Virus record (IMG/VR): IMGVR_UViG_3300018405_001117
Location: 1-21,354 of that record
DNA from: a virus
Length of the DNA: 21,354 bases
Reading direction: 5' to 3' (one strand)
Notes under the pieces: model-generated
Told to the model about the DNA's origin: nothing
Databases searched by the model: none
The model's input: only the letters and a program-made list of their open reading frames with translations
In this document: one piece after another, positions 4,014 to 21,354 of the stretch
Position numbering within the stretch: the stretch's first letter is position 1
Layout of the letters: every line of letters begins with the position of its first letter
Program-made: the position numbers and the translations under genes

Positions 4014-4312
4014 TTTTCAAATCTCCATAATTCAACTTTTTCTATTTTTAATCTTGATTCCAAAATCCTTAAATAACTTCTCATATGAATAAGTTGCTCT
4101 AATAAAACATTATATGGAACGCTTGGTTCAAATCCTAGGTATTCATTCACATTAATATTATTTTCTCGAGCATAATCCCAGTTTTTTAACATTTCTTTTA
4201 GACCATCTAATCTAATTTTAAGTTGATAGTACTCTGCAACTAATCTGCTCTTATAACTGGAACTCATCATTAAATCTTTAGTGTACTCTAATCTTATATC
4301 TTTAGAAATCAT
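4010..4312 (-). CDS. Small helical protein of unknown function
   Basis: A 100-residue charged protein, predicted largely alpha-helical with coiled-coil tendency at both ends (residues about 15-45 and 68-95) and a short hydrophobic LGFEPSVPYN link between. The pattern of an N-terminal EY-x-L-x-x-R helix and a C-terminal LL-EQL-x-x-M-x-x-YL helix resembles a small protein family widespread in phages (named after a crAss-like phage gene), but I hold this only loosely. The frame also has ATGs at 4324 and 4318; I chose 4312 because GAGG lies 6 nt before it, inside the 3' end of nrdF, which it overlaps. Its stop overlaps the PQ-loop start, so it is translationally coupled on both sides. Confidence 0.6.
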   Translation of the reverse strand: MISKDIRLEYTKDLMMSSSYKSRLVAEYYQLKIRLDGLKEMLKNWDYARENNINVNEYLGFEPSVPYNVLLEQLIHMRSYLRILESRLKIEKVELWRFEK

Positions 4313-5309
4313 AATCATCCTCATCCATAGCTTCCGCTTGTCCCATTAAATATCCAGATCCTACTTGTGAAAAGAAATCATGGTTTGTTGTATCAGTGGA
4401 CAATCCATTTAGAACAATTGGATTTACTAATTCAACATTGCCTTCTTCGTAATAAGATTCAAATCCTAAATTTTGAAGGGCTTTATTTGCATTATATTTT
4501 ACAAAAGTGTTTACTTCTTCTGTCCACCCTACTTGGTCATAAACCTCTTTTGTATATTTTATTTCATTCTCCATTAATTTAAATAATAAATCATAAACCC
4601 ATTTTTCTAATTCTTTTTGCTCATCTTCAGGAAGTTCGTTAAAACCTAATTGAAATTTATATCCAAGATATGTCCCATGAACTGACTCATCTCTAATGAT
4701 AAGCTTAATAATTTCAGCTACGTTTTCTAATTTATTATTTCCTAAATACCATAGTGGAGTAAAGAATCCTGAATAGAACAAAAATGATTCTAGAAATACA
4801 GAAGCTGCCTTCTTCTGGAGTGGACTTCCGCTTTGATAGATTTCATTAATAACTTTAGCTTTAAATTGTAGGCTTTCATTATTGTTTCCCCATTCGAAAA
4901 TATTTTCAATTTCTTTATTGTTATTTAATGAAATAAAAATAGTAGAATATGATTTTGCATGAACAGATTCCATAAATAATATATTGTTCAATACAGCTTC
5001 TTCTTGTTGAGTTCTTACATCATTTCGCATAACGTTTGCGCCTTCTTCAGATTGCAAGGTATCTAATAATGTTAACCCAACAAACGCCTTATTAATAACG
5101 TCACGTTCATTATTTGTTAATTGACGCCAATCATCCAAGTCATTTGAAACAGGAACACGAGTGTCTAACCAGAATTGCTCCACTAATTTCAACCATGTAG
5201 CTTGATCTACTGCATCCTCAATTTTGTTCCAATCAATTGCTTTATAATAAAGAATATCATTAACGTCTAACTTCGAAACTGGAATATGATTAAAATGTTT
5301 TTGTTTCAT
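4302..5309 (-). CDS. nrdF: Class Ib ribonucleotide reductase beta subunit NrdF
   Basis: The 335-residue small subunit that holds the dimetal-tyrosyl radical cofactor for aerobic ribonucleotide reduction. Metal ligands are visible: Asp83, Glu114, His117, Glu174, Glu208 and His211, with the radical Tyr121 in ESVHAKSY. The C-terminal DEDDYDF is the tail that docks on NrdE. Length is normal for NrdF. An AAGGAG site lies 9 nt before the ATG. Unusually, nrdF is not next to nrdE: it follows the anaerobic nrdD-nrdG genes, with nrdE and nrdI in the preceding operon. A possible promoter of its own lies over the end of nrdG. Confidence 0.96.
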   Translation of the reverse strand: MKQKHFNHIPVSKLDVNDILYYKAIDWNKIEDAVDQATWLKLVEQFWLDTRVPVSNDLDDWRQLTNNERDVINKAFVGLTLLDTLQSEEGANVMRNDVRTQQEEAVLNNILFMESVHAKSYSTIFISLNNNKEIENIFEWGNNNESLQFKAKVINEIYQSGSPLQKKAASVFLESFLFYSGFFTPLWYLGNNKLENVAEIIKLIIRDESVHGTYLGYKFQLGFNELPEDEQKELEKWVYDLLFKLMENEIKYTKEVYDQVGWTEEVNTFVKYNANKALQNLGFESYYEEGNVELVNPIVLNGLSTDTTNHDFFSQVGSGYLMGQAEAMDEDDYDF

Positions 5310-5346
5310 TTTTATAAAACTCCTTTTTTATTTTTTATATATATTC

Positions 5347-5376
5347 ATTATAACACATTTGTTTTAAATAGTACAA
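5347..5376 (-). promoter_or_regulatory. Possible nrdF promoter
   Basis: On the minus strand: TTGTAC at 5376-5371, an 18-nt spacer and TATAAT at 5352-5347, just upstream of nrdF and overlapping the nrdG stop. It lacks the GTATATAATATA signature of the four main promoters. It could let NrdF be made apart from the anaerobic enzymes, but may be a chance match in AT-rich DNA. Confidence 0.35.
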
Positions 5377-5998
5377 CACTATTTCTTTCAATACTCTTTT
5401 TAACATCTATGATACGTTGGTTATCACTACCTCTGAACACCGGAGGAGCTATGTCATCTCGGTATTCGGTAATGAATTGACCATCCATTAAAACATCTAT
5501 GTTATTTAATAACTGTATTCTAGGATCGTTAGGTTCTAACTGCATAAGAGCCTCAAATGTATAACCAGTATAAGACCATATAGTTTTATCAGGATAGTTC
5601 TCTTTAATCTTGTTAGTTAGGTCTAATAATCTGGGGGAATTAAGCATTGGCTCTCCCCCACATAATGTTATACCATCTAAATTCTTTTTGGACATATCAC
5701 TCATTATCAACTTTTCTAACTCGTCATCATATAATTTACCATAACGTTTATTTTGAGCCAACACATTAAAACATTCTTTACAATCGAATGGGCAACCAGA
5801 TACATATATTGTGCATCTAATACCTTCTCCATCTAGAGATTGAAATCGTTTATAATCAGCAACTCTAGTTTCTTCTAATGGAATTAGTTTCCACTTTAAG
5901 CTTCGTTCATTCATAAATTTAATTCTCTTTTGTCTGATAGCTTCGACTTTACCCCATTCTTCAAATGTTAAATCATATCTATCGTTGGCCTTCATCAT
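5348..5998 (-). CDS. nrdG: Anaerobic ribonucleotide reductase activase NrdG
   Basis: A radical-SAM activase that installs the glycyl radical on NrdD. The iron-sulfur motif is CPFDCKEC (C-x3-C-x2-C), followed by CGGEP for SAM binding. At about 216 residues it is longer than the usual ~155, owing to an N-terminal extension of some 50 residues (DRYDLTFEEWGKV onwards). The frame also allows a TTG start at 6007; I prefer the ATG at 5998, though neither has a strong ribosome site. It follows nrdD by a few nucleotides, as expected for the activase pair. Confidence 0.93.
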   Translation of the reverse strand: MMKANDRYDLTFEEWGKVEAIRQKRIKFMNERSLKWKLIPLEETRVADYKRFQSLDGEGIRCTIYVSGCPFDCKECFNVLAQNKRYGKLYDDELEKLIMSDMSKKNLDGITLCGGEPMLNSPRLLDLTNKIKENYPDKTIWSYTGYTFEALMQLEPNDPRIQLLNNIDVLMDGQFITEYRDDIAPPVFRGSDNQRIIDVKKSIERNSVVLFKTNVL

Positions 5999-6015
5999 AT
6001 TTATCAACTTACTTT

Positions 6016-8160
6016 CTAATTATGTTTAACTCTATTGGCAATTTCAGCTTGTTTACCTGAAACTACAGGTCGTTTAGCCGGTTGACCCAAGTACCCACAT
6101 AAACGTCTAACTACGTTCATTCTATCACAATCATCATTTCCACATTTAGGACATGAATAACCATACTTATCACATTTGAACTCACCTTTAAAATTGCATT
6201 CATAACACATATCAGAAGGAGTATTAATACCAAAATAGCATAATTTATCATGAGCTTCATCCCAGATAGATTCAAATGCCTTATGGTTATTGTCTAAGTT
6301 AGGCATTTCAACATAATGCATGAAGCCAGCTGTTGCTATTTTATAATATGGAGCCTCAAATTCAATTTTACTGAAAGGATCGGTATCTAGGAAAGATGGG
6401 TAATGGAAAGAATTTTCATAATATTCCATATCATTTACATCCTTAATTACTCCAAATCGTTCTCGATCTAATTTAGCGAATCTATCTGCTAAACTCTCAC
6501 TAGGAGTACTATATAAGCTAACGTAAACTTCAAAGTCTTCTTGAACACGATCAATGTAATCTTGTAAAAATTGAAGAGTTTGTATACTAAATTGATAAAT
6601 CTCTTCATCTTTATGCCATTCCTTTTTGCAGAATAAAGCAACCATGGCATTATGTAATCCAACATAACCAACTGAAACAGTAGAGCGTTTTCTATTATCA
6701 CCAGTGTAAAGATCCCTAACAGATTTAATATTATCTCCACCGTATAAACCACCAGACTTATACATAATAGGTGCAGATTCTATATCAGCAGATAGAGTCA
6801 CATCCTCTCTAGTATGTAGAGAATCAATAAGAATATCCATCGCATCACTAACTAATTCAAAGAAATAATCTTTATTGCCTTCAGCTTGAATTGCTAGACG
6901 AGGTAAATTTAAAGATGTAACCCCAATATTATTTCTACCAACTATCTCATATTCGCCTGTAGAAGGTCGTTTCCATGGATGTAAATACGATCTGCATCCC
7001 ATTGGAGATATAACATTTCCTTCTTTAATACTCTTTAAGTTCTCTACTGAAATCAAATCAGGATAAATTCTTTTTCTAGATGTTTCCATAGCTAACTCTT
7101 TGATGTCATAATTCTCATCGCCGGGACTTTTATTCAAACCTTCTTCTACAAAGAATAATAGTTTAGGGAAAATAGCAGTGATTTCTCCTCCATCACCATT
7201 ATCCATGCCTTTTAGTCTAACGTTGAGAATAGCTTTCTGAATTTCTCTACCTAACCATCCTTTAGATTGCCCAAAAGATATTGATGAGAATGGAGTTTGT
7301 GCTGAATGTGCAGTAATTGTATTGATCTCGTATTCTAAAGCTTCCATAGATTGTTGAATATCGTGTTGCGTCATTTTTCTCGCTACTTCTTCGATATTAT
7401 TATAATCACCATCTGTTTCTTTAATAATATCATGACAGATTCCTAAATTTTTCGCATGAGTTTTCTCAGCATACGGTATAAGTAGTTTATCTATCTCATG
7501 AACTGTAATTCCCCCGTATTGAGCTCCTGTAATAGCGCTTATTAGGATAGATAAATGACTGACTGCAGTTCTAATAGATTGAGCAGGAGTAACGTGTGTT
7601 GTACCTACATCAAAACCATGTTTTAATAAATATTCAAAGTTAGGCAATGAACAATTTGGTAGTCCCTGATGTGGAAATCTATCTAAATCATGTAAGTGAA
7701 TTAAGCCTTTAATATGTGCCCTCTGTACTTTCTCTGAGAACTGTTTGATACCTTTAGATTTAGCTATAACTGACGCAGTCAAATCCCTCTGCGTTACAAA
7801 TGTTCTGGAATCTTTATTTCCATTCTCATTGACTACTTCTTTATCCTTACTCTCTAGTCTTTCTAACTGATATTGAGTATCTGAAAATTGATCGATCTTT
7901 TCCTGTTCTGAGTCTTTATATTGTTTGAAGGCTGATAATACCACTGCATCATCTTTAAGTTCCTCCTTAATGATGTTGAAAATATCTGAACTATGTATAT
8001 CCTCAAATTCATTTACCTTATTATCGATTGCTTGAACAATATCTTCAAGATCGCGTTTAAACTCAAAGTTAAAATATCTCTGAGTACTTTTTAGGTTGTT
8101 CATGATTTTTTCTTTTCTAAATGGTTTTACCCTGCCGTCTTTTTTAATGACATTTACCAT
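6016..8160 (-). CDS. nrdD: Anaerobic (class III) ribonucleoside-triphosphate reductase NrdD
   Basis: A 714-residue glycyl-radical enzyme that reduces NTPs without oxygen. The N-terminal ATP-cone starts at VNVIKKDGRVKPF. Active-site cysteines are visible in LPNCSLPN and PMGCRSYL. The C-terminal zinc site has CYEC and CPKC pairs, and the glycyl-radical loop is RRLCGYLG, with Gly689 the likely radical site. The open frame runs back to 8277, but that extension lies over a tRNA gene and has no family similarity, so the ATG at 8160 is the start, with AAGGGG about 14 nt upstream. Two tRNA genes form the leader of its operon. Confidence 0.96.
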   Translation of the reverse strand: MVNVIKKDGRVKPFRKEKIMNNLKSTQRYFNFEFKRDLEDIVQAIDNKVNEFEDIHSSDIFNIIKEELKDDAVVLSAFKQYKDSEQEKIDQFSDTQYQLERLESKDKEVVNENGNKDSRTFVTQRDLTASVIAKSKGIKQFSEKVQRAHIKGLIHLHDLDRFPHQGLPNCSLPNFEYLLKHGFDVGTTHVTPAQSIRTAVSHLSILISAITGAQYGGITVHEIDKLLIPYAEKTHAKNLGICHDIIKETDGDYNNIEEVARKMTQHDIQQSMEALEYEINTITAHSAQTPFSSISFGQSKGWLGREIQKAILNVRLKGMDNGDGGEITAIFPKLLFFVEEGLNKSPGDENYDIKELAMETSRKRIYPDLISVENLKSIKEGNVISPMGCRSYLHPWKRPSTGEYEIVGRNNIGVTSLNLPRLAIQAEGNKDYFFELVSDAMDILIDSLHTREDVTLSADIESAPIMYKSGGLYGGDNIKSVRDLYTGDNRKRSTVSVGYVGLHNAMVALFCKKEWHKDEEIYQFSIQTLQFLQDYIDRVQEDFEVYVSLYSTPSESLADRFAKLDRERFGVIKDVNDMEYYENSFHYPSFLDTDPFSKIEFEAPYYKIATAGFMHYVEMPNLDNNHKAFESIWDEAHDKLCYFGINTPSDMCYECNFKGEFKCDKYGYSCPKCGNDDCDRMNVVRRLCGYLGQPAKRPVVSGKQAEIANRVKHN

Positions 8161-8219
8161 ATTATATTTCTTGTCCCCTTCAATTTTAAAACTTATTATT
8201 TTAATACCATAAGATATTA

Positions 8220-8292
8220 TGGACGTAGATGGGCTCGAACCATCAACCATTCCGTTATGAGCGAAGCACTCTACCACTTGAGTTATACGTCC
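8220..8292 (-). tRNA. tRNA with anticodon CAU (Met or Ile2)
   Basis: A 73-nt cloverleaf: a 7-bp acceptor stem (GGACGTA with TACGTCC), D arm ACTC/GAGT, anticodon loop CTCATAA (anticodon CAU), T arm GATGG-TTCGAGC-CCATC and discriminator A. No CCA is encoded. The first anticodon-stem pair is a C-A mismatch. CAU can belong to Met or, if the wobble C becomes lysidine, to Ile reading AUA. The CTCATAA loop and GGAC acceptor start look more like Bacillota tRNA-Ile2, but this is not decisive. Lack of a G1-opposed mismatch argues against initiator tRNA. Confidence 0.93.
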
Positions 8293-8311
8293 TAAATTTT
8301 ATTTTAACAAA

Positions 8312-8385
8312 CGCACCATGCAAGATTCGAACTTGCAACTTACGCTTTAGAAGAGCGTTACTCTATCCAGTTGAGTTAATGGTGC
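8312..8385 (-). tRNA. tRNA-Arg (UCU)
   Basis: A 74-nt cloverleaf: acceptor GCACCAT with ATGGTGC, D arm ACTC/GAGT, anticodon stem ACGCT/AGCGT with loop CTTCTAA (anticodon UCU), T arm GCAAG-TTCGAAT-CTTGC and discriminator G. No CCA is encoded. It reads AGA, a favoured Arg codon in this AT-rich genome. It lies 19 nt upstream of the CAU tRNA and is transcribed from the same promoter. Confidence 0.96.
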
Positions 8386-8428
8386 AAATATAACTAGAAT
8401 TAACTAGTCATATTTAACTTATATTTAT

Positions 8429-8457
8429 ATTATATACTATTTCACACTATGTGTAAA
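8429..8457 (-). promoter_or_regulatory. Conserved phage promoter P2 (tRNA-nrdD-nrdG-nrdF operon)
   Basis: TTTACA at 8457-8452, a 17-nt spacer and TATAAT at 8434-8429 within GTATATAATATAA on the minus strand. A small imperfect dyad (4 bp plus 3 bp around a bulged G, loop ATA) spans the -35 box and early spacer and could be an operator. The promoter sits between the nrdE stop and tRNA-Arg. Confidence 0.85.
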
Positions 8458-8469
8458 CAGCTTTTCTGA

Positions 8470-10656
8470 TTAAATTACACAGCTTTCACATTCATTTACT
8501 CCAACATCTCTGTTTACATCACCTGTGTGTGTTCTAATATAATAAAGCGATTTGATACCTTTTGCCCAAGCATAATTTCTAAGCTTGTTTAAATCTCTAG
8601 TTGTCATTTTATTGGTTTTCCCATTCTTCCATTCGTACATACCTTCTAGAATTTCAGAACGCATAAATAAAGTTAGAGACATCCCTTGGTCAACATGATA
8701 TTGTGCAGCTGCATATATATCAATCACCTTACGCATATCAATATCATAAGCAGATTCATAAAATTCAATTGTTTTATCATTCAATCCCGGTGCTGGATAA
8801 AAGACTGCCCCTACTTTTCCTTCTTGTCTATGTTCGATTTTTTGAACTATAGGATGAATAGAAGAAGTTGCCTCATTAATATAAGATATTGACCCTGTTG
8901 GTGCAACTGCTAATAAATAGCTATTATACAATCCATATTTCATAATATCTTCATTCAATTTTTTCCAATCTTTAATAGTAGGAACTTTAACATTTTTGAA
9001 AATCTTTTTAACTTTGTCAGATTTGAATGTAAATTCTTCTACATCAATATATTTTCTATTAATATATGAACCATCTGCATATTCAGATTTTTCAAATTGA
9101 TGAAACTTTGTTTGTGTTAACTTAGCAATATCTTTACTAGTCTCTAAAGCATAAAATCTTAAAGCTCTAAAATAAGCATCTGTAAACTCAATAGATTCTT
9201 CGCTTCCATATTGGATTCCATAGTGTGCTAAAGCTCCATGTAAATTCATAGCCCCTAATCCAATAGAGCTATATTGCTTGTTTGCTCTACTAACAGTTGG
9301 AACTTCTTCAATATGTGTTAAAACAGAAACACCTGTCAATGCTGATACTGCTGTTCGAACTGACGTTTTAAAATCTGGAGATTGAATCATATTCAACACG
9401 TTAGTCGAAGCTAAATTACAACTAACATCAAAACCAACTTTAGAGTAAGAAAGATCTGGATTTAATTCAGATGGCTCTTGAACCTGTAAGATCTCGGAAC
9501 ATAAGTTGCTCATGATAATATCGCCAAATACTGGATTTTCACTATTAGCAGTATCAATATTGACAACATAAGGATATCCTGACTCCTGTTGCAATTTACT
9601 AATTTCCTGTTCTAATTCACGCGCTTTAATTTTATATGTTTTAATTTTTTCATTTTTCACCATGTTGTCATATTCTTTAGTGATATTTACATAAGAAAAC
9701 GGTTTTCCATATTCTCTTTCAACATCTTTAGGACTAAATAAAAACATTGGTTCATTAGTTTTTAATAATTCATAATATTTATCAGGAATGGTTAGTCCTA
9801 ACGATAATGTTTTAACTCTAATTTTCTCATCAGCATTTTCTTTTTTAGTTGATAAGAAGTTGTAAATATCGGGGTGGAATACGCTTAAGTATGTTACACC
9901 AGCACCTTGACGCTGTCCTAATTGGTTTGCATAACTGAAACTGTCCTCTAACAACTTCATAACTGGAACAACACCAGAGGACGCATTAGGAATTTCTTTA
10001 ATAGATGAACCTGATTCACGTAAATTTGATAGGTTAATACCTACGCCACCACCATTTTTACTTAATTGTAGCGCGGAATTGATTCCTCGACCAATTGATA
10101 ACATACTATCATCAAAATCTAATAAGAAGCAAGAAACCATTTCTCCTCGGCTCATTTTACCTGCATTTAAAAATGTAGGAGTTGCCATTTGAAGTCGCTG
10201 CGTGATATGCTCCTTAGCGATATTATGAGCTAATTTATAATCTCCTTGGGCTAAATATAATGACATAATAGCAATTCTATCTTCATAACGTTCTAAATAA
10301 CGTTCACCATCTTTAGTTTTTAGTGCGTATTGATTATAAAATTTAAACGCACCCATGAATGATTTAAATCTGAATTTTTGGTCGTATAAATATTGGAACA
10401 ATGACTTGATAAATGAAAATTCATACATTTCAATAAAATCTTTTTCAATATATTCATTCTCAATTAAATAATCAATCTTTTCTTTTAATGTATAGAAGAA
10501 AACTGTGTTAGGATTAACATGTTCTAAAAAATATGCTTTAACAGCTTCTCTATCTTTATCTAATTGAATCTGTCCGTCTTTTGGAATATTTACCATATTG
10601 TTCAGTTTAAAAAATGTATTCTCTTTAGGTTTTAAAATCTCTTCAAATTTATTCAA
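8470..10656 (-). CDS. nrdE: Class Ib ribonucleotide reductase alpha subunit NrdE
   Basis: The 728-residue catalytic subunit reducing NDPs. Redox cysteines are seen in GEMVSCFLLD and GFDVSCNLAS, the radical-site Cys with its Asn and Glu partners in SNLCSE, and the C-terminal thiol pair in NECESCVI, which receives electrons from NrdH. Length fits class Ib, and no intein or intron interrupts the conserved blocks. The start is a TTG at 10656 with GAGGAG 7 nt upstream, overlapping the nrdI stop by 8 nt. NrdE is separated from its partner NrdF by the tRNA-nrdD-nrdG genes. Confidence 0.96.
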   Translation of the reverse strand: MNKFEEILKPKENTFFKLNNMVNIPKDGQIQLDKDREAVKAYFLEHVNPNTVFFYTLKEKIDYLIENEYIEKDFIEMYEFSFIKSLFQYLYDQKFRFKSFMGAFKFYNQYALKTKDGERYLERYEDRIAIMSLYLAQGDYKLAHNIAKEHITQRLQMATPTFLNAGKMSRGEMVSCFLLDFDDSMLSIGRGINSALQLSKNGGGVGINLSNLRESGSSIKEIPNASSGVVPVMKLLEDSFSYANQLGQRQGAGVTYLSVFHPDIYNFLSTKKENADEKIRVKTLSLGLTIPDKYYELLKTNEPMFLFSPKDVEREYGKPFSYVNITKEYDNMVKNEKIKTYKIKARELEQEISKLQQESGYPYVVNIDTANSENPVFGDIIMSNLCSEILQVQEPSELNPDLSYSKVGFDVSCNLASTNVLNMIQSPDFKTSVRTAVSALTGVSVLTHIEEVPTVSRANKQYSSIGLGAMNLHGALAHYGIQYGSEESIEFTDAYFRALRFYALETSKDIAKLTQTKFHQFEKSEYADGSYINRKYIDVEEFTFKSDKVKKIFKNVKVPTIKDWKKLNEDIMKYGLYNSYLLAVAPTGSISYINEATSSIHPIVQKIEHRQEGKVGAVFYPAPGLNDKTIEFYESAYDIDMRKVIDIYAAAQYHVDQGMSLTLFMRSEILEGMYEWKNGKTNKMTTRDLNKLRNYAWAKGIKSLYYIRTHTGDVNRDVGVNECESCVI

Positions 10657-15110: not shown

Positions 15111-16089
15111 CAGGGTACCCACTATTTTCATAATGGCCTGGACTATATCTTCGTCGCCTGGTTTTTCAAACTTCGTATCAATAGAAGTCTTACTCTACTA
15201 AGTGAAAGTAATTACTTTCCTTTTCGATAGTCTCTACACCTTTTTCCTCTTCTTTAATCCTTTAATATCCTTTATATGGTTTCTTGAGCCTCTCATTCTT
15301 GAATAGTGTTCCATGTCCAATCATATTAATATGTTGTAACACTTCACCAAGATTTGAAAATGTTTTGAGATAATTTCCATTTAAATCGAATTGATGCCAT
15401 CTTCTTGAGTTATTCAAATTGTAGTTTTTCCTATTCTCTTCATTCTGCCATCTTTTTATATTTGCTTCAGATATTTTTTTTCTAGCCATAGGATCGTTGA
15501 ATCTTTTCTTTTGACCAATTGAACAATTTATCTTATGCAATTTTATTTTATCAGGCGTTGAGAATATTCTCCAATCTTTCATAAACATGGCATTATTTCT
15601 ACCGGAGTTAGATAATCTATTTTTCCCAATCATTTTCTTTTTTCCTTCTGGATAATACTTAAACACATTACCGCCATAACCACCTTCATGAAGATTAGTT
15701 TTAGCTTGTTTTCTATTTTTCCAGAATGAAATATGTTCTCTTTCAAGTTCGAATGCTTCTTGTTCATTTAAATTGTTTATCATAATAACAGGATATAGAT
15801 TATATTTCTCATATGTTCTATTAAAGTAAATATTCCTATGAGAAACTAAATATCTATTTTCTTTTCCTTTACCAATATAAACAACCTCGTTGTTTTTATC
15901 TTTATTAAACCAATAATAAATATAATACTGAATATGTTTCATCTCCTTAATTACTGGAGAAGAGGAACTTGGCACGGTATTACCATATCTTTTGACTTAG
16001 GTTTCACCGTTAGCATGCTTTACGCACACACCGTTGATTAACGTTTACCAGATTTTTTTAGCGTGGAGGCTCAGTCGGGTTTTTAACCA
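15111..16089 (-). mobile_element. Group I intron (979 nt) in the helicase gene, carrying a homing endonuclease
   Basis: Splice sites are placed by pairing on the minus strand. P1: exon CGTGGTGGT (16098-16090) pairs with GCCTCCACG (16070-16062), one U-U mismatch, and a U-G wobble at the 5' splice site. P10: exon 2 UUAG (15110-15107) pairs with CUGA (16074-16071) directly beside the P1 guide strand. P7: GACTAT (15232-15227) with ATAGTC (15146-15141), the latter in the classic AAGATATAGTCC element. P9: CCATTAT-GAAA-ATAGTGG (15136-15119), a GNRA-capped stem. The last intron base is G (15111). Exon ends fall on codon boundaries and restore a conserved helicase motif. The core resembles phage group IA introns such as T4 td. 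Confidence 0.9.
15262..15942 (-). CDS. GIY-YIG homing endonuclease (intron-encoded)
   Basis: An intron-encoded nuclease of 226 residues from the ATG at 15942. The GIY-YIG domain is at the N-terminus (YYIYYWF, then VVYIGKGKENR with the catalytic Arg) and the metal-binding Glu is in ELEREHISFW. The DNA-binding half has lysine/asparagine-rich NUMOD3-like segments (SNSGRNNAMF, DPMARKKISEANIKRW) and a C-terminal NUMOD1-like unit (FDLNGNYLKTFSNLGEVLQH). It should cut intronless helicase alleles to spread the intron. The start is uncertain: AAGGAG touches the ATG at 15942 with no spacing, and a GTG at 15975 lies within the intron core. Confidence 0.88.
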   Translation of the reverse strand: MKHIQYYIYYWFNKDKNNEVVYIGKGKENRYLVSHRNIYFNRTYEKYNLYPVIMINNLNEQEAFELEREHISFWKNRKQAKTNLHEGGYGGNVFKYYPEGKKKMIGKNRLSNSGRNNAMFMKDWRIFSTPDKIKLHKINCSIGQKKRFNDPMARKKISEANIKRWQNEENRKNYNLNNSRRWHQFDLNGNYLKTFSNLGEVLQHINMIGHGTLFKNERLKKPYKGY

Positions 16090-17340
16090 ACCACCACGGA
16101 GTGAAGTGGCATCTCTATTTTCTACTTCTTTTGAACCTCTATTCAACTGCGTTGAAGATTCTAAGAAAATATTATACCTGGTTGCTATATTTTTTAATGC
16201 AGCAGAGAAATGTACTAAAACTTGGTCCTCACGTAAAGTTTGACCGAAATTTTGCTGCATTGTCTTACTTAATTTAGGTGCCATTTGAATATAGTCAAAT
16301 GCGACATATTCAATATTTTCATGAATAATATATTGTTCTATTTTCATTTCAATATCTGAAATAGAGAAATCTTCAATATATGATGCGAATAATGGAGCTC
16401 TTTTTAAAATTTCTTTTGCTTTATTTAATCTTTCTAATGTTCCTGCATCATAATTTCCATCTTTAATATCTGAATCTGATATTCCTGAAATAAAAGCAAG
16501 CATGATTAATTGTACTTCATCTTTATCTAACTCTGTTGAAATAAATAAAGCAGGTCGCTCGATTCCTAATGAAATCCAACCTCTACCAGTTTCGTAAATT
16601 TGACTACACGCAACGGTACACATATCTTTAATTGCTTGTCTTGTTTTGCCGGTCCCAGTGCTCCCTGATCTCAATAAGAATTTACCTTTTCTCATACCTC
16701 TAAATAATTTATTATAATAACCATTTTGGAATGGATATCCCATATCTGGTTCTTCTTGAATACGATTGAGCAGAGTGTCTAAATCGTCTCCTGCTTTAAA
16801 GTCAAGAACGACACCTTCATCTACATTCCATTCATCTCTAACCGCAATCAATTTATTCGTAAAATGCTCAATAATTTCATTAGTAGTCATTGATTCCAAC
16901 TTATGAGAAGATTCATTAATTTCTTTTAAATCAAAAGTTTTGTAATCATAAACATCTGAAACATCAATACCTTTTTCTACGTAACTTCTTAATAATGAGT
17001 ATTTTTTAAGTCTATCATAATCACTTTTAAATACTTCGTAATTCGCATGCGATTTAGAATCTTTAATGTAATTTATTCCATCATTATCATCCCATATTTT
17101 GTAATAAACAGGATACGAACTCAAATAATTATCTATGTCGATTGGTGTTATATTTTTAACATCTTTATTTGAGAAAGTAATATTTGAAACTGCTGAAAAT
17201 ACAATCTTATGAAATTCTTGTACAAAATCCCTAGGTCCTAATATGTTTTCAGGATTTTTCAAGAAAGATGGGTCATTACATATATTTCCTAAAATAGAAT
17301 AAATTGACCTAGTTGGGTTAAGAGCAATTGTTTCATTCAT
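16090..17340 (-). CDS. Replicative DNA helicase (DnaB-type), exon 1
   Basis: The first 417 codons of a DnaB-type hexameric helicase; with exon 2 (14754-15110) the protein is 535 residues. An N-terminal helical domain (residues 1 to about 180) precedes the RecA-like core with Walker A GSTGTGKT, ALFISTELDKDE, the Walker B-like FDYIQMAP and SSTQLNRGS, and exon 1 stops in the RDATSLRGG motif. Reading on into the intron would add 14 unrelated residues before a stop at 16045, so splicing is needed for a whole helicase. GGAGG lies about 13 nt before the ATG. It overlaps the upstream zinc-ribbon gene by 1 nt. Confidence 0.93.
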
Positions 17341-17828
17341 TACGTTAGTTCCTCCATATTAATCATTTTTTTATCTTTATAGTTATCACTAATTATTGAT
17401 TTTGTGGCCTTATAGATAATTCGCGTTCTATTAATAGATTGTACATCTTCTAATTTTTCTGCTCTTTTTCTATTTTTCTCAAAATAAATAATTGCATCAT
17501 CTATAATATAAGGAACCAAACTTAATCCATATTTTGAATGGAAAGATTTTTTTAAAACATGTTTCCCATACCAAATTGCTTTAGCCTGATCATTGTATTT
17601 GTAATTACGACTTTCCCTAAAGTCTTTCATTTGTCTTAACATCATTCCAGTTGGGTAAGGAATATTATAAATCTTACTTATTTCATTGATGAGCTTCTGT
17701 CTACCTTCATCATCTTCTTTTTTGATAATGAGGCATTCTTTGCAATAATTCTTGTTTTTATACAAGGTTAATTCTTCTTTTTGATATTTATTATCGCAGA
17801 AGCCATAACACTTCAAACGTCTTGACAT
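17340..17828 (-). CDS. Zinc-ribbon protein next to the helicase (possible helicase loader)
   Basis: A 162-residue basic protein. The N-terminal zinc ribbon has Cys7-x3-Cys11 and Cys29-x2-Cys32. The rest is helical, with an aromatic/basic segment (KAIWYGKHVLKKSFHSKYG) and a charged C-terminus. GGAGG lies 7 nt before the ATG and the stop overlaps the helicase start as TAATG. It is the first gene after promoter P4. Genes directly before a phage DnaB helicase often encode helicase loaders or origin proteins, so I suggest that role from position only; there is no AAA+ or known loader motif. Confidence 0.7.
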   Translation of the reverse strand: MSRRLKCYGFCDNKYQKEELTLYKNKNYCKECLIIKKEDDEGRQKLINEISKIYNIPYPTGMMLRQMKDFRESRNYKYNDQAKAIWYGKHVLKKSFHSKYGLSLVPYIIDDAIIYFEKNRKRAEKLEDVQSINRTRIIYKATKSIISDNYKDKKMINMEELT

Positions 17829-17860
17829 TTAACAACCTCCAATTAATACTATATATCTAT

Positions 17861-17889
17861 ATTATATACAACCCAAGCTTTAATGTAAA
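17861..17889 (-). promoter_or_regulatory. Conserved phage promoter P4 (zinc-ribbon-helicase-primase-RecJ operon)
   Basis: TTTACA at 17889-17884, a 17-nt spacer and TATAAT at 17866-17861 within GTATATAATATAGATATATA on the minus strand. The -35 box lies in the loop of a perfect 12-bp hairpin (17869-17902). The start codon at 17828 is about 33 nt past the -10 box. Confidence 0.87.
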
Positions 17890-17902
17890 TAAGCTTGGGT
17901 TG
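17869..17902 (-). terminator. Perfect 12-bp hairpin with the P4 -35 box in its loop
   Basis: CAACCCAAGCTT, a 10-nt loop containing TTTACA, then AAGCTTGGGTTG, starting 9 nt past the stop of the SprT-like gene. No strong T run follows on the minus strand (TATATAATATA), so it may be a weak terminator, a processing site, or an operator for P4. The shared bases mean transcription from upstream and initiation at P4 are linked. Confidence 0.55.
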
Positions 17903-17911
17903 AAATATTTT

Positions 17912-18514
17912 TTATATTAAATTGTTGTATGCCTTTAATGCTTCTACATCTTGTGAAACATAAGCATCGTGTTTTTTAACCAATTCCACAAATCCTCTAG
18001 AATTATCACTTGGGTCTTTCCCATTAATATGTAAATAGTGATGAATAATCTCATGTCGAAGAATTGATTTCACAACTTCTTCATCTAACTGATTTACAAC
18101 ATAATCACTGATTACTATTGATTGAGTATCAGGCCAATATAATGCGTAATATTGATGTGTATTGCTTTTAACTAAATTGAGTAAAGGCAATTTATCTTTT
18201 TCTATTTCAAGCTCATTAACCGAGAATTCTTCAATATATTTTTCAATATCTTCTTCTGTTAATTCATTAACCTTCCACATCAACTCAACAGTCATCATTA
18301 CACCGGTGTTTTCTAAATATCTAAATTTCAGCACATTATTTTCTAAAAACACATCAAAACTTTCTAAATATCGCAAACTTCTTCCATGTTCTTTAAGGTG
18401 CATGTTTAGTTCTTTTTTGAGAGTATTGAATTTTTCTGTGTTTTTTACAACTTTTCTTTTTTCTCCATTAAATTTTTTAACAAATTTTTGAATTTCTAAA
18501 TCATTTAATAACAT
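17912..18514 (-). CDS. SprT-like zinc metalloprotease-fold protein
   Basis: A 200-residue protein with the zincin motif RHEIIHHYLH (His154, Glu155, His158) in the C-terminal part, followed by a DNSRGFVELVKKHD segment like the SprT/Spartan helix that supplies the third ligand. The N-terminal 100 residues are charged and helical with no recognised domain. SprT-like proteins cleave DNA-bound or DNA-crosslinked proteins in cells; a similar role in phage replication is inferred from its place beside replication genes. GGAGG lies 6 nt before the ATG, overlapping the stop of the upstream membrane protein gene. Confidence 0.78.
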   Translation of the reverse strand: MLLNDLEIQKFVKKFNGEKRKVVKNTEKFNTLKKELNMHLKEHGRSLRYLESFDVFLENNVLKFRYLENTGVMMTVELMWKVNELTEEDIEKYIEEFSVNELEIEKDKLPLLNLVKSNTHQYYALYWPDTQSIVISDYVVNQLDEEVVKSILRHEIIHHYLHINGKDPSDNSRGFVELVKKHDAYVSQDVEALKAYNNLI

Positions 18515-18517
18515 TAT

Positions 18518-18712
18518 TTACCTCCGACTGCCTCCGTTTGCGCACACATTAATAAAAATCATCAGACCGACCGTATAAATATTGTGAACTTCTCTACCTA
18601 ATATTCCGCTTAAAGACCATGACCCTAATAAAACAGTTCCTACTAAAATCATTACAACTAACAAAAGCGACAAGATAAATATTAAAACATTTTTCACTTT
18701 ATTTTTATTCAT
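18518..18712 (-). CDS. Small two-helix membrane protein
   Basis: A 64-residue protein with a lysine-rich N-terminus (MNKNKVK), a long hydrophobic helix (residues about 8-30) and a second helix (about 41-58), ending in GGSRR. Charge placement suggests the N-terminus is cytoplasmic. The start overlaps the nrdH stop by 8 nt, and the stop overlaps the ribosome site of the SprT-like gene. Function is not recognisable; there is no holin-specific sign and it lies among metabolism genes. Confidence 0.65.
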   Translation of the reverse strand: MNKNKVKNVLIFILSLLLVVMILVGTVLLGSWSLSGILGREVHNIYTVGLMIFINVCANGGSRR

Positions 18713-18953
18713 CTAATAAATGACCTTCTAAATTGGTTACTTGATGACCTGACCAATGCCATTGCCAATCATTTAAAGATACCACTGGAGCTTGTCTATA
18801 TCCTTCACTTTTAATCTGCTCTAATGCGTCGTCATCAGAGTAAATATCAACTTCTGTAAATTCTATTCCATGTTCATTTAACCATTCTTTTGTTTTTTCG
18901 CAGTTAGAACAAGGTTTTTTTGAGTACACAGTAACATTATTTATTTTTAACAT
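18705..18953 (-). CDS. nrdH: NrdH glutaredoxin-like redoxin
   Basis: An 82-residue thioredoxin-fold protein with the redox pair Cys15-x-x-Cys18 (KPCSNCEKT), the cis-proline segment QAPVVSL and the C-terminal WSGHQVTNLEGHL helix typical of NrdH. It passes electrons to the class Ib reductase NrdE. The CSNC active site differs from the usual CVQC or CMQC of NrdH, which may tune its redox behaviour. The gene is about 8 kb upstream of nrdI and nrdE rather than beside them. It overlaps the upstream 57-residue gene by 1 nt (TAATG), with only a weak ribosome site, suggesting translational coupling. Confidence 0.88.
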   Translation of the reverse strand: MLKINNVTVYSKKPCSNCEKTKEWLNEHGIEFTEVDIYSDDDALEQIKSEGYRQAPVVSLNDWQWHWSGHQVTNLEGHLLDE

Positions 18954-19126
18954 TAAGCATCATTCTTTCTTTTATTTTTTTTACGACGATCTTCTTTTGT
19001 TTTACGAACTAATTCTGTTTTAGCTTCATTTTCACGAACTGCTTTTAATTCGGCTCTTCTAAATCGTTCTTTCATATCATTCATATCTTGATTAACTGCT
19101 GTATAAGGCTGTTTTAATCTTCCCAT
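18953..19126 (-). CDS. 57-residue basic protein
   Basis: A short gene starting MGRLKQPYTAV and ending in a strongly basic tail (KTKEDRRKKNKRKNDA); the middle is a charged helix. A near-consensus GGAGGAA lies 5 nt before the ATG. The stop overlaps the nrdH start as TAATG. The lysine/arginine tail could bind nucleic acid, but no family is recognised. Confidence 0.75.
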   Translation of the reverse strand: MGRLKQPYTAVNQDMNDMKERFRRAELKAVRENEAKTELVRKTKEDRRKKNKRKNDA

Positions 19127-19188
19127 GTTATTCCTCCACTAATATCGTGATTATGTTTATTTTTACTTTGAATAAAATATGTTTTTTA

Positions 19189-19297
19189 TTTACAAAATAC
19201 GTCACGCGAAGGTTGCCGAGATAACATTTCCTAAGTGATTTGTTGTAATATCAACCCTCGCGTGAGTTTTAGGCAAAATTTTAGACGTTTTTGTAAA
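19189..19297 (-). repeat. Nested inverted repeat in the 195-nt gap after the Sak4-like gene
   Basis: Outer arms TTTACAAAATACGT (19189-19202) and ACGTTTTTGTAAA (19285-19297) enclose inner arms TCACGCGAAGGTTG (19202-19215) and CAACCCTCGCGTGA (19252-19265, 13 of 14 pairs plus one G-U). The inner arms are strikingly GC-rich for this genome. The whole gap 19127-19321 has no gene. It could be a structured RNA, a cruciform regulatory site or a replication origin element. There is no promoter of the conserved type here. Confidence 0.7.
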
Positions 19298-19321
19298 TAT
19301 TGTTATAATTAGTCAATATAA

Positions 19322-20395
19322 TTATAATTTAATATTTTCTTCGTTAGCTTTCTCTTCAATTAAAGATAATGCATGCGCAACTAATTCTTTTTGAGCTTCT
19401 TTAGCGTCTGTAATCTTATTTCCTAGTCCAAACACTTCAGATGAAATTGTGTTTAACAATTCAAGTTTACCTTCTTTATGGAAGGCTCCTCCCCAAGCTT
19501 TAACTTTACTCATTAATTCTTTGAAGTCAATTTCTTTAGCGACTTTTTCTCTTGCTTTATCAGTTTTATCGTCTTCACTAATCAATCCAATAGAACGTTC
19601 AACTGCATCTCTATAAGCTTGTGCACTTAAATCAACAACTGGATCGATTCCTTCAAATGTTGACCCTGCTTGCCACTGTAAAGTGTCTCGTAGATAAATA
19701 ACTCGCTTTTCTTGTCCTGTAGAAACATCAACAGTTGTATTTAAAAATAAGATATTATCTACCATTTTATTAATTGGTCCCATGTAACGATCATCTAAAT
19801 CGGGCGTATATTTTTGAAATTCATACACATCAATTTTAGTGTCTGTTCCTTTATCTTTTTTCTGTTTTAATTCAACCGTGGCCCCAGCTAAATCTGACTC
19901 TAGAACTCCTGATGCTGGGATTTGAACAGTTTTTTGAGTAGCATGACCAATAAATACTGGAACATATCCTAATTCTGAAATTTTGTTAATTCCATCTTTC
20001 CACATATTTTTAAGGTCTCGCCAGTCTTTACCCCAAATATCGTCACGTTCTCCAATTACTTTTTCTTTCCATTTAGCGGCTACGAATTTTTCTAACATAC
20101 TACTTAAGTTTTCTGCTGTATCAATCGCAACTGCGTCGTATAATTCTTTAACCTTTGGATTGCGCAATTGATTTAACAAATTCAACCAATCATTCCAATT
20201 TGTAATTCTAGCAATCATTGCTCCTGGTAAAGCTTTATGACGATCTTCTGTCGCGGCAAACAAAGCTCTATTACCAAACATTTCATGAACTAATGTAGTC
20301 TTACCGATTTTAGGTGGGCCATAAACAAAAGTTGAATACTCATCAGGATTTGTTGGCACCTTATTTGGTTGAATATCTAAAATATTAAATGACAA
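19322..20395 (-). CDS. Sak4-like RecA-fold ATPase (single-strand annealing/recombination)
   Basis: A 357-residue phage ATPase of the AAA_24/Sak4 type. Walker A is GPPKIGKTT (residues 26-34), Walker B is AVAIDTAEN (Asp92), followed by FIGHATQKT as a sensor-like segment. The C-terminal 80 residues (from about LISEDDKTDK) are charged and helical. Sak4 proteins promote strand annealing with help from a phage SSB, and an SSB-like gene lies immediately upstream, which supports the call. The start is a TTG at 20395 with GGAG 7 nt upstream; no ATG is close by. Confidence 0.85.
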   Translation of the reverse strand: MSFNILDIQPNKVPTNPDEYSTFVYGPPKIGKTTLVHEMFGNRALFAATEDRHKALPGAMIARITNWNDWLNLLNQLRNPKVKELYDAVAIDTAENLSSMLEKFVAAKWKEKVIGERDDIWGKDWRDLKNMWKDGINKISELGYVPVFIGHATQKTVQIPASGVLESDLAGATVELKQKKDKGTDTKIDVYEFQKYTPDLDDRYMGPINKMVDNILFLNTTVDVSTGQEKRVIYLRDTLQWQAGSTFEGIDPVVDLSAQAYRDAVERSIGLISEDDKTDKAREKVAKEIDFKELMSKVKAWGGAFHKEGKLELLNTISSEVFGLGNKITDAKEAQKELVAHALSLIEEKANEENIKL

Positions 20396-20663
20396 TTTAA
20401 TTCTCCTTATTCTTGTTTTTATTTTTTAATTAAAAATAAATGGCTGTATGGATTGTTTAACATATAACAGCGAAGCATTTACCTTACATAACGCTAACAC
20501 GTAAGCACCATTTATTTAATTATTTATTTAAAGTGGGATTTTTTATTTTTTGCAATAGCCTATATGAAATTAATCATAATCATCGTCACTTTGCTTGCTC
20601 ACATTTACATTGCTTCGAGCGATTAATTCTTTCATGCAATAACCACATATTATTTATCTTTTA
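20396..20663 (-). other. Non-coding gap between the SSB-like and Sak4-like genes
   Basis: A 268-nt gap. On the minus strand a 14-bp AT-rich closing stem (20508-20521 with 20428-20443, one 2-nt bulge) encloses about 64 nt that includes a smaller CTTAC/GTAAG stem (20501-20505 with 20483-20487) and several GCG/CGC segments. A T-rich run follows the closing stem, so it could be a terminator or a structured leader for the Sak4-like gene. No promoter of the conserved type and no convincing gene is seen. Confidence 0.45.
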
Positions 20664-21354
20664 TTAGAAATCTGGTAAATCTTCATCTGTAACTACTACA
20701 GGTTTTTCTTCTGTTTTAGCAGACCCAAATCCTGTTGGAGTTGCAGCAGCTTGAGAATTTTGTTTCAATTCTTGTAATGCTAAAGCACGATTTTTATGCG
20801 CTTGTTCTACATCTGCAGGACTATATTCGTTTACTCCATCACTATAAGGTAAATCTCCACCGATAATTTCTAATCCACTAACATAGTTTTTAACGATATT
20901 AGTTTCAACACGCTCAGCAGAACCAAATCCTGAAGTGTTTTCCACAACTTCTTCTTCCTCTTCTAGTTCAGCGTAATTGTTGATTTTATAAGTGATTTTA
21001 CCAGTTGTGCCAGGATAGTACATTGACTCGAACACACCTGCTAAATCTTTACCGATAATTGTATTTTTCAATGGAATCACTCGACCATTATAACCAACTG
21101 TAAAAGCATCTAATTCTAAGTTTCCAGTAGGAAGACCCTCAGCATCTAATTCCGAAGTCATACCCTCAACATAAGTATCAATAGTAGCCAATGCTTTTGG
21201 TTTAAAATCATCTTCCACTCTATTGAAGAATGTTGCAGAGAATGAATTGTAAGATGTTAATGAACCAGATTGTGTGTAATATTCTTCTAATCGAACCTCG
21301 CCTGTAACTCGAACCTGTTGTCCAACCTCATATTCATCCATAACTGTTTTATAA
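20664..21354 (-). CDS. Phage single-stranded DNA-binding protein (5' end outside window)
   Basis: An OB-fold-like protein. The visible start, YKTVMDEYEVGQQVRVTGEV, reads as the middle of an OB fold; the ATG at 21341 has no ribosome site and the frame continues to the window edge, so the true start is beyond it. The C-terminal part has two GFGSA units (SGFGSAER and TGFGSAKT) in a low-complexity linker and ends in DEDLPDF, an acidic tail like the DDDLPF tip that SSBs use to recruit partners. Adjacency to the Sak4-like ATPase matches known SSB/Sak4 recombination pairs. Confidence in the SSB role rests on tail and context more than on the core. Confidence 0.75.
   Translation of the reverse strand, partial: YKTVMDEYEVGQQVRVTGEVRLEEYYTQSGSLTSYNSFSATFFNRVEDDFKPKALATIDTYVEGMTSELDAEGLPTGNLELDAFTVGYNGRVIPLKNTIIGKDLAGVFESMYYPGTTGKITYKINNYAELEEEEEVVENTSGFGSAERVETNIVKNYVSGLEIIGGDLPYSDGVNEYSPADVEQAHKNRALALQELKQNSQAAATPTGFGSAKTEEKPVVVTDEDLPDF

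Follow-up and report, generated by a model that had tools for sequence, protein, structure and literature searches.

The sak4 Gap and Its Gene Neighborhood

The window, by which we mean the whole 21,354-nt stretch of viral DNA analyzed here, is a virus record in itself (21 kb). Its segment 19127–19321 is an entire non-coding gap, flanked on both sides by − strand ORFs, and the gap sits within a one-directional cluster of replication and nucleotide-metabolism genes. Read along the − strand, the order is a phrog_2367 protein, sak4, the gap, a 57-aa ORF, a glutaredoxin/thioredoxin-like gene, a 64-aa ORF, an SprT-like gene (Pfam score slightly below the cut-off), a 162-aa ORF (phrog_4680), a DnaB-like helicase, a homing endonuclease, a DnaG-type primase, a RecJ-like gene, two ribonucleotide reductases (RNRs), and thymidylate synthase. 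The 57-aa ORF has no Pfam match at 0.001. A preliminary description of this DNA placed the gap between recombination and RNR genes. This is right on the sak4 side; on the other side lie the 57-aa ORF and then the glutaredoxin-like gene, and the nearest RNR gene found, a large subunit at 8470–10656, is about 8.5 kb from the gap. The features of the locus are as follows.

19322–20395, − strand: sak4, Sak4-like recombinase (phrog_124, E 2.5e-45), upstream of the gap
19297–19319, no strand assigned: AT-rich palindrome ATATTG-N11-CAATAT, immediately past the sak4 stop
19286–19299, − strand: outer stem, 5′ arm in the sense RNA; the 11-nt perfect inverted repeat, lengthened in the fold
19266–19285, − strand: one-sided 5′ bulge of 20 nt at the junction of outer and inner stems (minimum-free-energy structure)
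19267–19278, − strand: weak third dyad, TTTTGCCTAAAA, inside the 20-nt bulge; a side hairpin in the antisense fold
19252–19265, − strand: inner GC-rich stem, 5′ arm, 14 nt, 13/14 complementary; the mismatch is a sense G-U
19216–19251, − strand: inner-stem loop, 36 nt (inverted repeat and fold)
19202–19215, − strand: inner GC-rich stem, 3′ arm (inverted repeat)
19187–19201, − strand: outer stem, 3′ arm, with one bulged base (inverted repeat and fold)
18953–19126, − strand: 57-aa ORF with a GGAGG ribosome-binding site, downstream of the gap; marginal phrog_26707 match

Elsewhere in the window, ribonucleotide reductases of two types are encoded in 4302–10656, the aerobic one (large and small subunits) and the anaerobic one (NrdD), with tRNA-Met and tRNA-Arg genes adjoining. 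The DnaB helicase gene is interrupted at 15119–16044 (− strand) by an ORF for a homing endonuclease (phrog_314). Matches to group I introns, weak and under the Rfam cut-off, lie near both ends (E 0.011 and 0.037), and the DnaB gene is uninterrupted in the related contigs L002 and L003.

Structure and Stability of the Nested Dyad

The gap contains no ORF, and two inverted repeats lie nested in it, as the preliminary description had it. The inner arms (19202–19215 and 19252–19265) are 14 nt each, match at 13 of 14 positions, and are spaced by 36 nt; in the sense RNA, copied from the − strand, the single mismatch is a G-U pair. The outer arms (19187–19197 and 19289–19299) form a perfect inverted repeat of 11 nt, which in the − strand fold is lengthened to 14 pairs, reaching 19286 and 19201, with one base bulged. 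The described contrast in composition also holds, 8 of 14 bases in the inner arm being G or C as against 28% across the gap. The extent needs a small correction: the nested dyad spans 113 nt, not about 109.

The nested dyad is clearly real and far from chance. On the − strand, the 113-nt core has a folding energy of −34.1 kcal/mol (z −6.2), and none of 200 shuffled sequences is equally stable. For the gap as a whole, z is −4.7 (− strand) and −3.9 (+ strand). Among 4247 segments of 120 nt on the − strand, the dyad site is the lowest-folding, with the tRNA region about level, just behind. The inner repeat is one of four of equal quality in the window; in 60 dinucleotide shuffles of the window in its entirety, no inverted repeat of such quality has at least 8 G+C per arm.

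The Closest Relative

Relatives of Sak4 are found in Enterococcus, Geobacillus, Staphylococcus, Lactobacillus, Leuconostoc, and Bacillus phages, among others, in 108 phage records that are all below 60% identity. Sak4 of contig L002 is 71% identical to that of the window, compared with 59% for an Enterococcus phage and 51% for a Geobacillus phage. L002, with DnaB at 86%, is the only close contig that is syntenic across the gap. Its sak4 gap is 315 nt long and unlike the window’s in sequence. At the same place, it holds a large hairpin with an outer stem of 6 bp, a 5′ bulge of 10 nt, and an inner stem of 26 bp interrupted by three mismatches; the core has z −4.4, and the arms are unrelated to those of the window.

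No conserved sequence core was found between the two gaps, and in a MAFFT alignment of the two, the dyad is too gapped for pair counting. The one stretch of gap sequence found in common is an AT-rich block of 30 nt adjoining the dyad, 90% identical to L002 2432–2461 (E 0.002 by blastn in a search of about 0.94 Mb of loci). This block contains the palindrome ATATTG-N11-CAATAT of the window. Past the gap, the small ORFs of the window and of L002 do not align with each other.

A separate motif, approximately AAATGGTGCTTAC-loop-GTAAG.TAAATG...ACAGCCATTTATTT, lies in the gap upstream of sak4, at 20396–20663 (− strand) in the window and 1104–1250 in L002, and among viral contigs scanned for the pattern, L002 alone has it. 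It could form a small structured RNA; Rfam gives no match to it at E 5 or below, and the whole-gap folds are ordinary (z 0.4 and −0.8).

Searches for Homologues of the Dyad

At the gathering cut-off, Rfam finds two tRNAs in the whole window and nothing in the gap. At a permissive threshold, the best match in the window’s gap has E 3.9, and nothing credible appears in the L002 gap (best E 1.6). BLASTN of the gap returned only short AT-rich fragments from phages (best E 0.07 among the best 40 of 82 records) and from plasmids (best E 0.004 among 10 records). The inner arms, used as an exact pattern, have no match in viral contigs. Two covariance models, R1 from the window and R2 from L002, each built from a single sequence entered twice, gave no credible locus over 77 sources each. 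Neither detects the other’s source, and R1 run unfiltered on L002 finds no homologue; each model’s second-best match falls on the opposite strand of the sequence from which it was built. A scan of genome contigs with the Sak4 alignment gave 16 loci, all at 29% identity or less, and a scan with a 200-aa protein as query gave no matches. The literature searches turned up no account of the element, nor of any hairpin conserved at the 3′ side of sak4. With R1 and R2 lacking homologues, the dyad would not qualify as a new conserved family of structured RNA.

Hairpins at the sak4 Gene End in Other Relatives

Gap-by-gap folds were made in 21 loci, and the 150 nt past the sak4 stop were folded in 21 loci, the two sets overlapping without being identical. 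For the comparison of gaps, we used nine loci with gene tables and gaps of 40–400 nt; in eight of the nine, the gap on the 3′ side of sak4 is 40 nt or longer. These gaps have a median z of −3.81 (six of eight at −2 or below), compared with −1.01 for the other gaps (17 of 47). The one-sided Mann–Whitney p is 0.003, a value that is indicative since the loci are related phages.

By script, a gap of at least 25 nt follows sak4 in 16 of 21 loci. Inspection by eye places a hairpin near the sak4 stop in nearly all of the loci with a gap, the exceptions being L025 (none clear) and L092 (weak). L043 was scored as gapless by the script, but its annotated 53-nt gap holds a hairpin with z −3.8. Apart from the near-duplicate pairs L009/L017 and L011/L022, the sak4-gap sequences differ widely. 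A T run of at least five, a feature of terminators, accompanies the hairpin in L009, L011, L017, L022, and L024. Taken whole, several sak4 gaps fold weakly: L025 (z −1.2), L014 (−1.3), L022 (−1.5), L091 (−1.6), and L092 (−1.9). Since L012, L023, L042, and L093 have no gap at all after sak4, the element in the sak4 gap is dispensable.

The conserved trait is thus a hairpin at the sak4 gene end and not the dyad sequence. Conservation or covariation in relatives had been named beforehand as a point on which the dyad would stand or fall, and the answer is divided: conservation of the dyad sequence is absent, and what the relatives share is only the presence and position of a hairpin. Another strong intergenic hairpin was seen in L004, a related contig (DnaB about 70%), in the 230-nt gap at 521–750 (core 585–650, z −4.8).

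Strand Preference

Over 15 hairpin cores, 19 G-U pairs form in the sense strand and 7 in the antisense. The sense strand is the stabler in 11 cores and the antisense in three (those of the window, L014, and L019), with one tie. For the window’s hairpin, the antisense fold is slightly the stabler, −36.7 versus −34.1. These predicted folds favor RNA over DNA as the level of action for the group, but not for the window’s own copy.

A Proposed Hairpin in the Intercistronic mRNA

Most likely, the dyad is ordinary mRNA punctuation and neither an origin of replication nor a new family of RNA. On balance, we favor an intercistronic hairpin in the sense mRNA at the 3′ end of sak4, serving in attenuation and/or 3′-end protection. 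The − strand transcript would fold just past the sak4 stop into the outer stem, the one-sided 5′ bulge, and the GC-rich inner stem. In this role, the hairpin would stop part of the transcription, as an attenuating terminator, and/or hold off 3′ exonucleases. Expression of sak4 would then differ in level from that of the genes downstream (the small ORF, the glutaredoxin-like gene, and the SprT-like gene). We infer the action as RNA, and likewise any choice between termination and protection. The suggestion of a structured RNA in the preliminary description thus survives loosely, as an intercistronic mRNA hairpin, on the strength of the fold, the tendency of the relatives to carry a hairpin, and the sense G-U excess of the group.

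A terminator role is probably a partial one, given the lack of a U-tract and of a promoter behind the hairpin. On the sense strand, A-rich sequence comes after the hairpin, with one T among the eight bases past the folded domain. The stem has 14 bp and is GC-rich, but its loop, at 36 nt, is longer than a standard terminator allows, and no terminator-like site was found in 16000–21354. Perfect TTTACA-N17-TATAAT promoter sites occur four times on the − strand of the window (17889, 11827, 8457, and 3696), and none lies in the sak4 gap of the window or L002. Without a promoter behind the hairpin, complete termination would silence four genes, unless another type of promoter serves them. It follows that partial termination, protection of the message, or processing is more likely than a complete stop.

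Compared with intrinsic (Rho-independent) terminators, including suboptimal ones assisted by NusA/NusG (PMC8060035), the element shares a hairpin right after the stop codon, and several relatives have a stem and T run at the sak4 site. The window’s hairpin differs in having no U-tract, a 36-nt loop, a 20-nt one-sided bulge, and no phage-type promoter downstream. With the intercistronic stem-loops that protect mRNA (PMC7509114), it shares a stable hairpin separating cistrons; protection here is putative.

In this group of phages, TTTACA-N17-TATAAT promoters are themselves often fused to a hairpin (window 17889 and 3696; L002 3935; L009 630 and 8289; L011 172 and 7734; L045 12482). The loop or one of the arms contains the −35 box, and the spacer contains the 3′ arm, in some cases together with a T run. 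These are compact terminator–promoter fusions; of 32 distinct sites folded, several have z below −3.7, and others have no hairpin.

Alternative Explanations

The main rival to the gene-end hairpin is processing, which we consider rather unlikely. Here, host RNase III would cut a signal of two stems and an asymmetric loop, separating sak4 from the downstream message, as in the T7 early mRNA. In the predicted folds, two stems surround a one-sided or lopsided loop in the window (20/0 nt), in L002 (10/0), and in Staphylococcus phage SpP (L044, 10/4), and the missing promoter behind the hairpin fits processing inside an operon. The T7 site R1.1, between genes 1.0 and 1.1, has an asymmetric internal loop of 4/5 nt (PMC6121014). 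Signals of this type are likewise intercistronic, with two stems and an asymmetric internal loop. However, the loops predicted here are bigger and less balanced than that of R1.1, the window’s one-sided loop being much larger and its terminal loop larger also, and cleavage is only putative. The location of the loop on the 5′ side in three of three cases is not significant, and the majority of relatives have short, simple hairpins without an asymmetric loop.

It is improbable that the dyad is the relic of an inserted element or a functionless structure that drifted in the spacer. The relic reading would account for arms without a homologue in viral contigs, phages, or plasmids and for the missing sak4 gap in some relatives. 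Against it, the syntenic L002 gap also holds a large, stable hairpin, hairpins are in excess at the sak4 position across relatives, and no target-site duplication was seen by eye in the gap sequence.

A more ambitious reading, which we regard as quite improbable, is that the sak4 gene ends of Firmicutes phages carry a class of fast-evolving, large RNA domains, conserved in architecture only and with a role beyond termination. The arrangement of outer stem, one-sided 5′ bulge, and inner stem in the window, L002, and SpP is suggestive only.

A ligand-sensing leader or a trans-acting small RNA is, we think, very unlikely. The fold is large and elaborate, with a small ORF some 60 nt downstream of it, and the lack of a fitting Rfam family would allow for an undescribed class; however, the window and L002 have no sequence core in common, a phage-type promoter of its own is absent, and the best Rfam match is no better than E 3.9.

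An equally slim chance attaches to a DNA element, that is, a replication origin, a cruciform, or a protein-bound palindrome: the dyad is palindromic at the DNA level, lies among replication genes beside a short AT-rich palindrome common to L002, and folds as well on the antisense strand as on the sense, but the origin and cruciform readings of the preliminary description were dropped, as the GC skew, its proposed check, is monotone over this 21-kb fragment with no turning point at the gap, neither DnaA boxes within one mismatch nor iterons were found in the gap, and the dyad sequence is unconserved even in L002.

Implications

The significance of a gene-end hairpin after sak4 is mainly one of annotation. 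In this phage group, the position of gene-end hairpins tends to recur and their sequence does not; therefore, sequence searches miss such hairpins. If the architecture-only class were real, it might, for example, couple the stability of the recombinase mRNA to the stage of infection. If the large two-stem form is functional in itself, it would offer a compact setting of recombinase levels.
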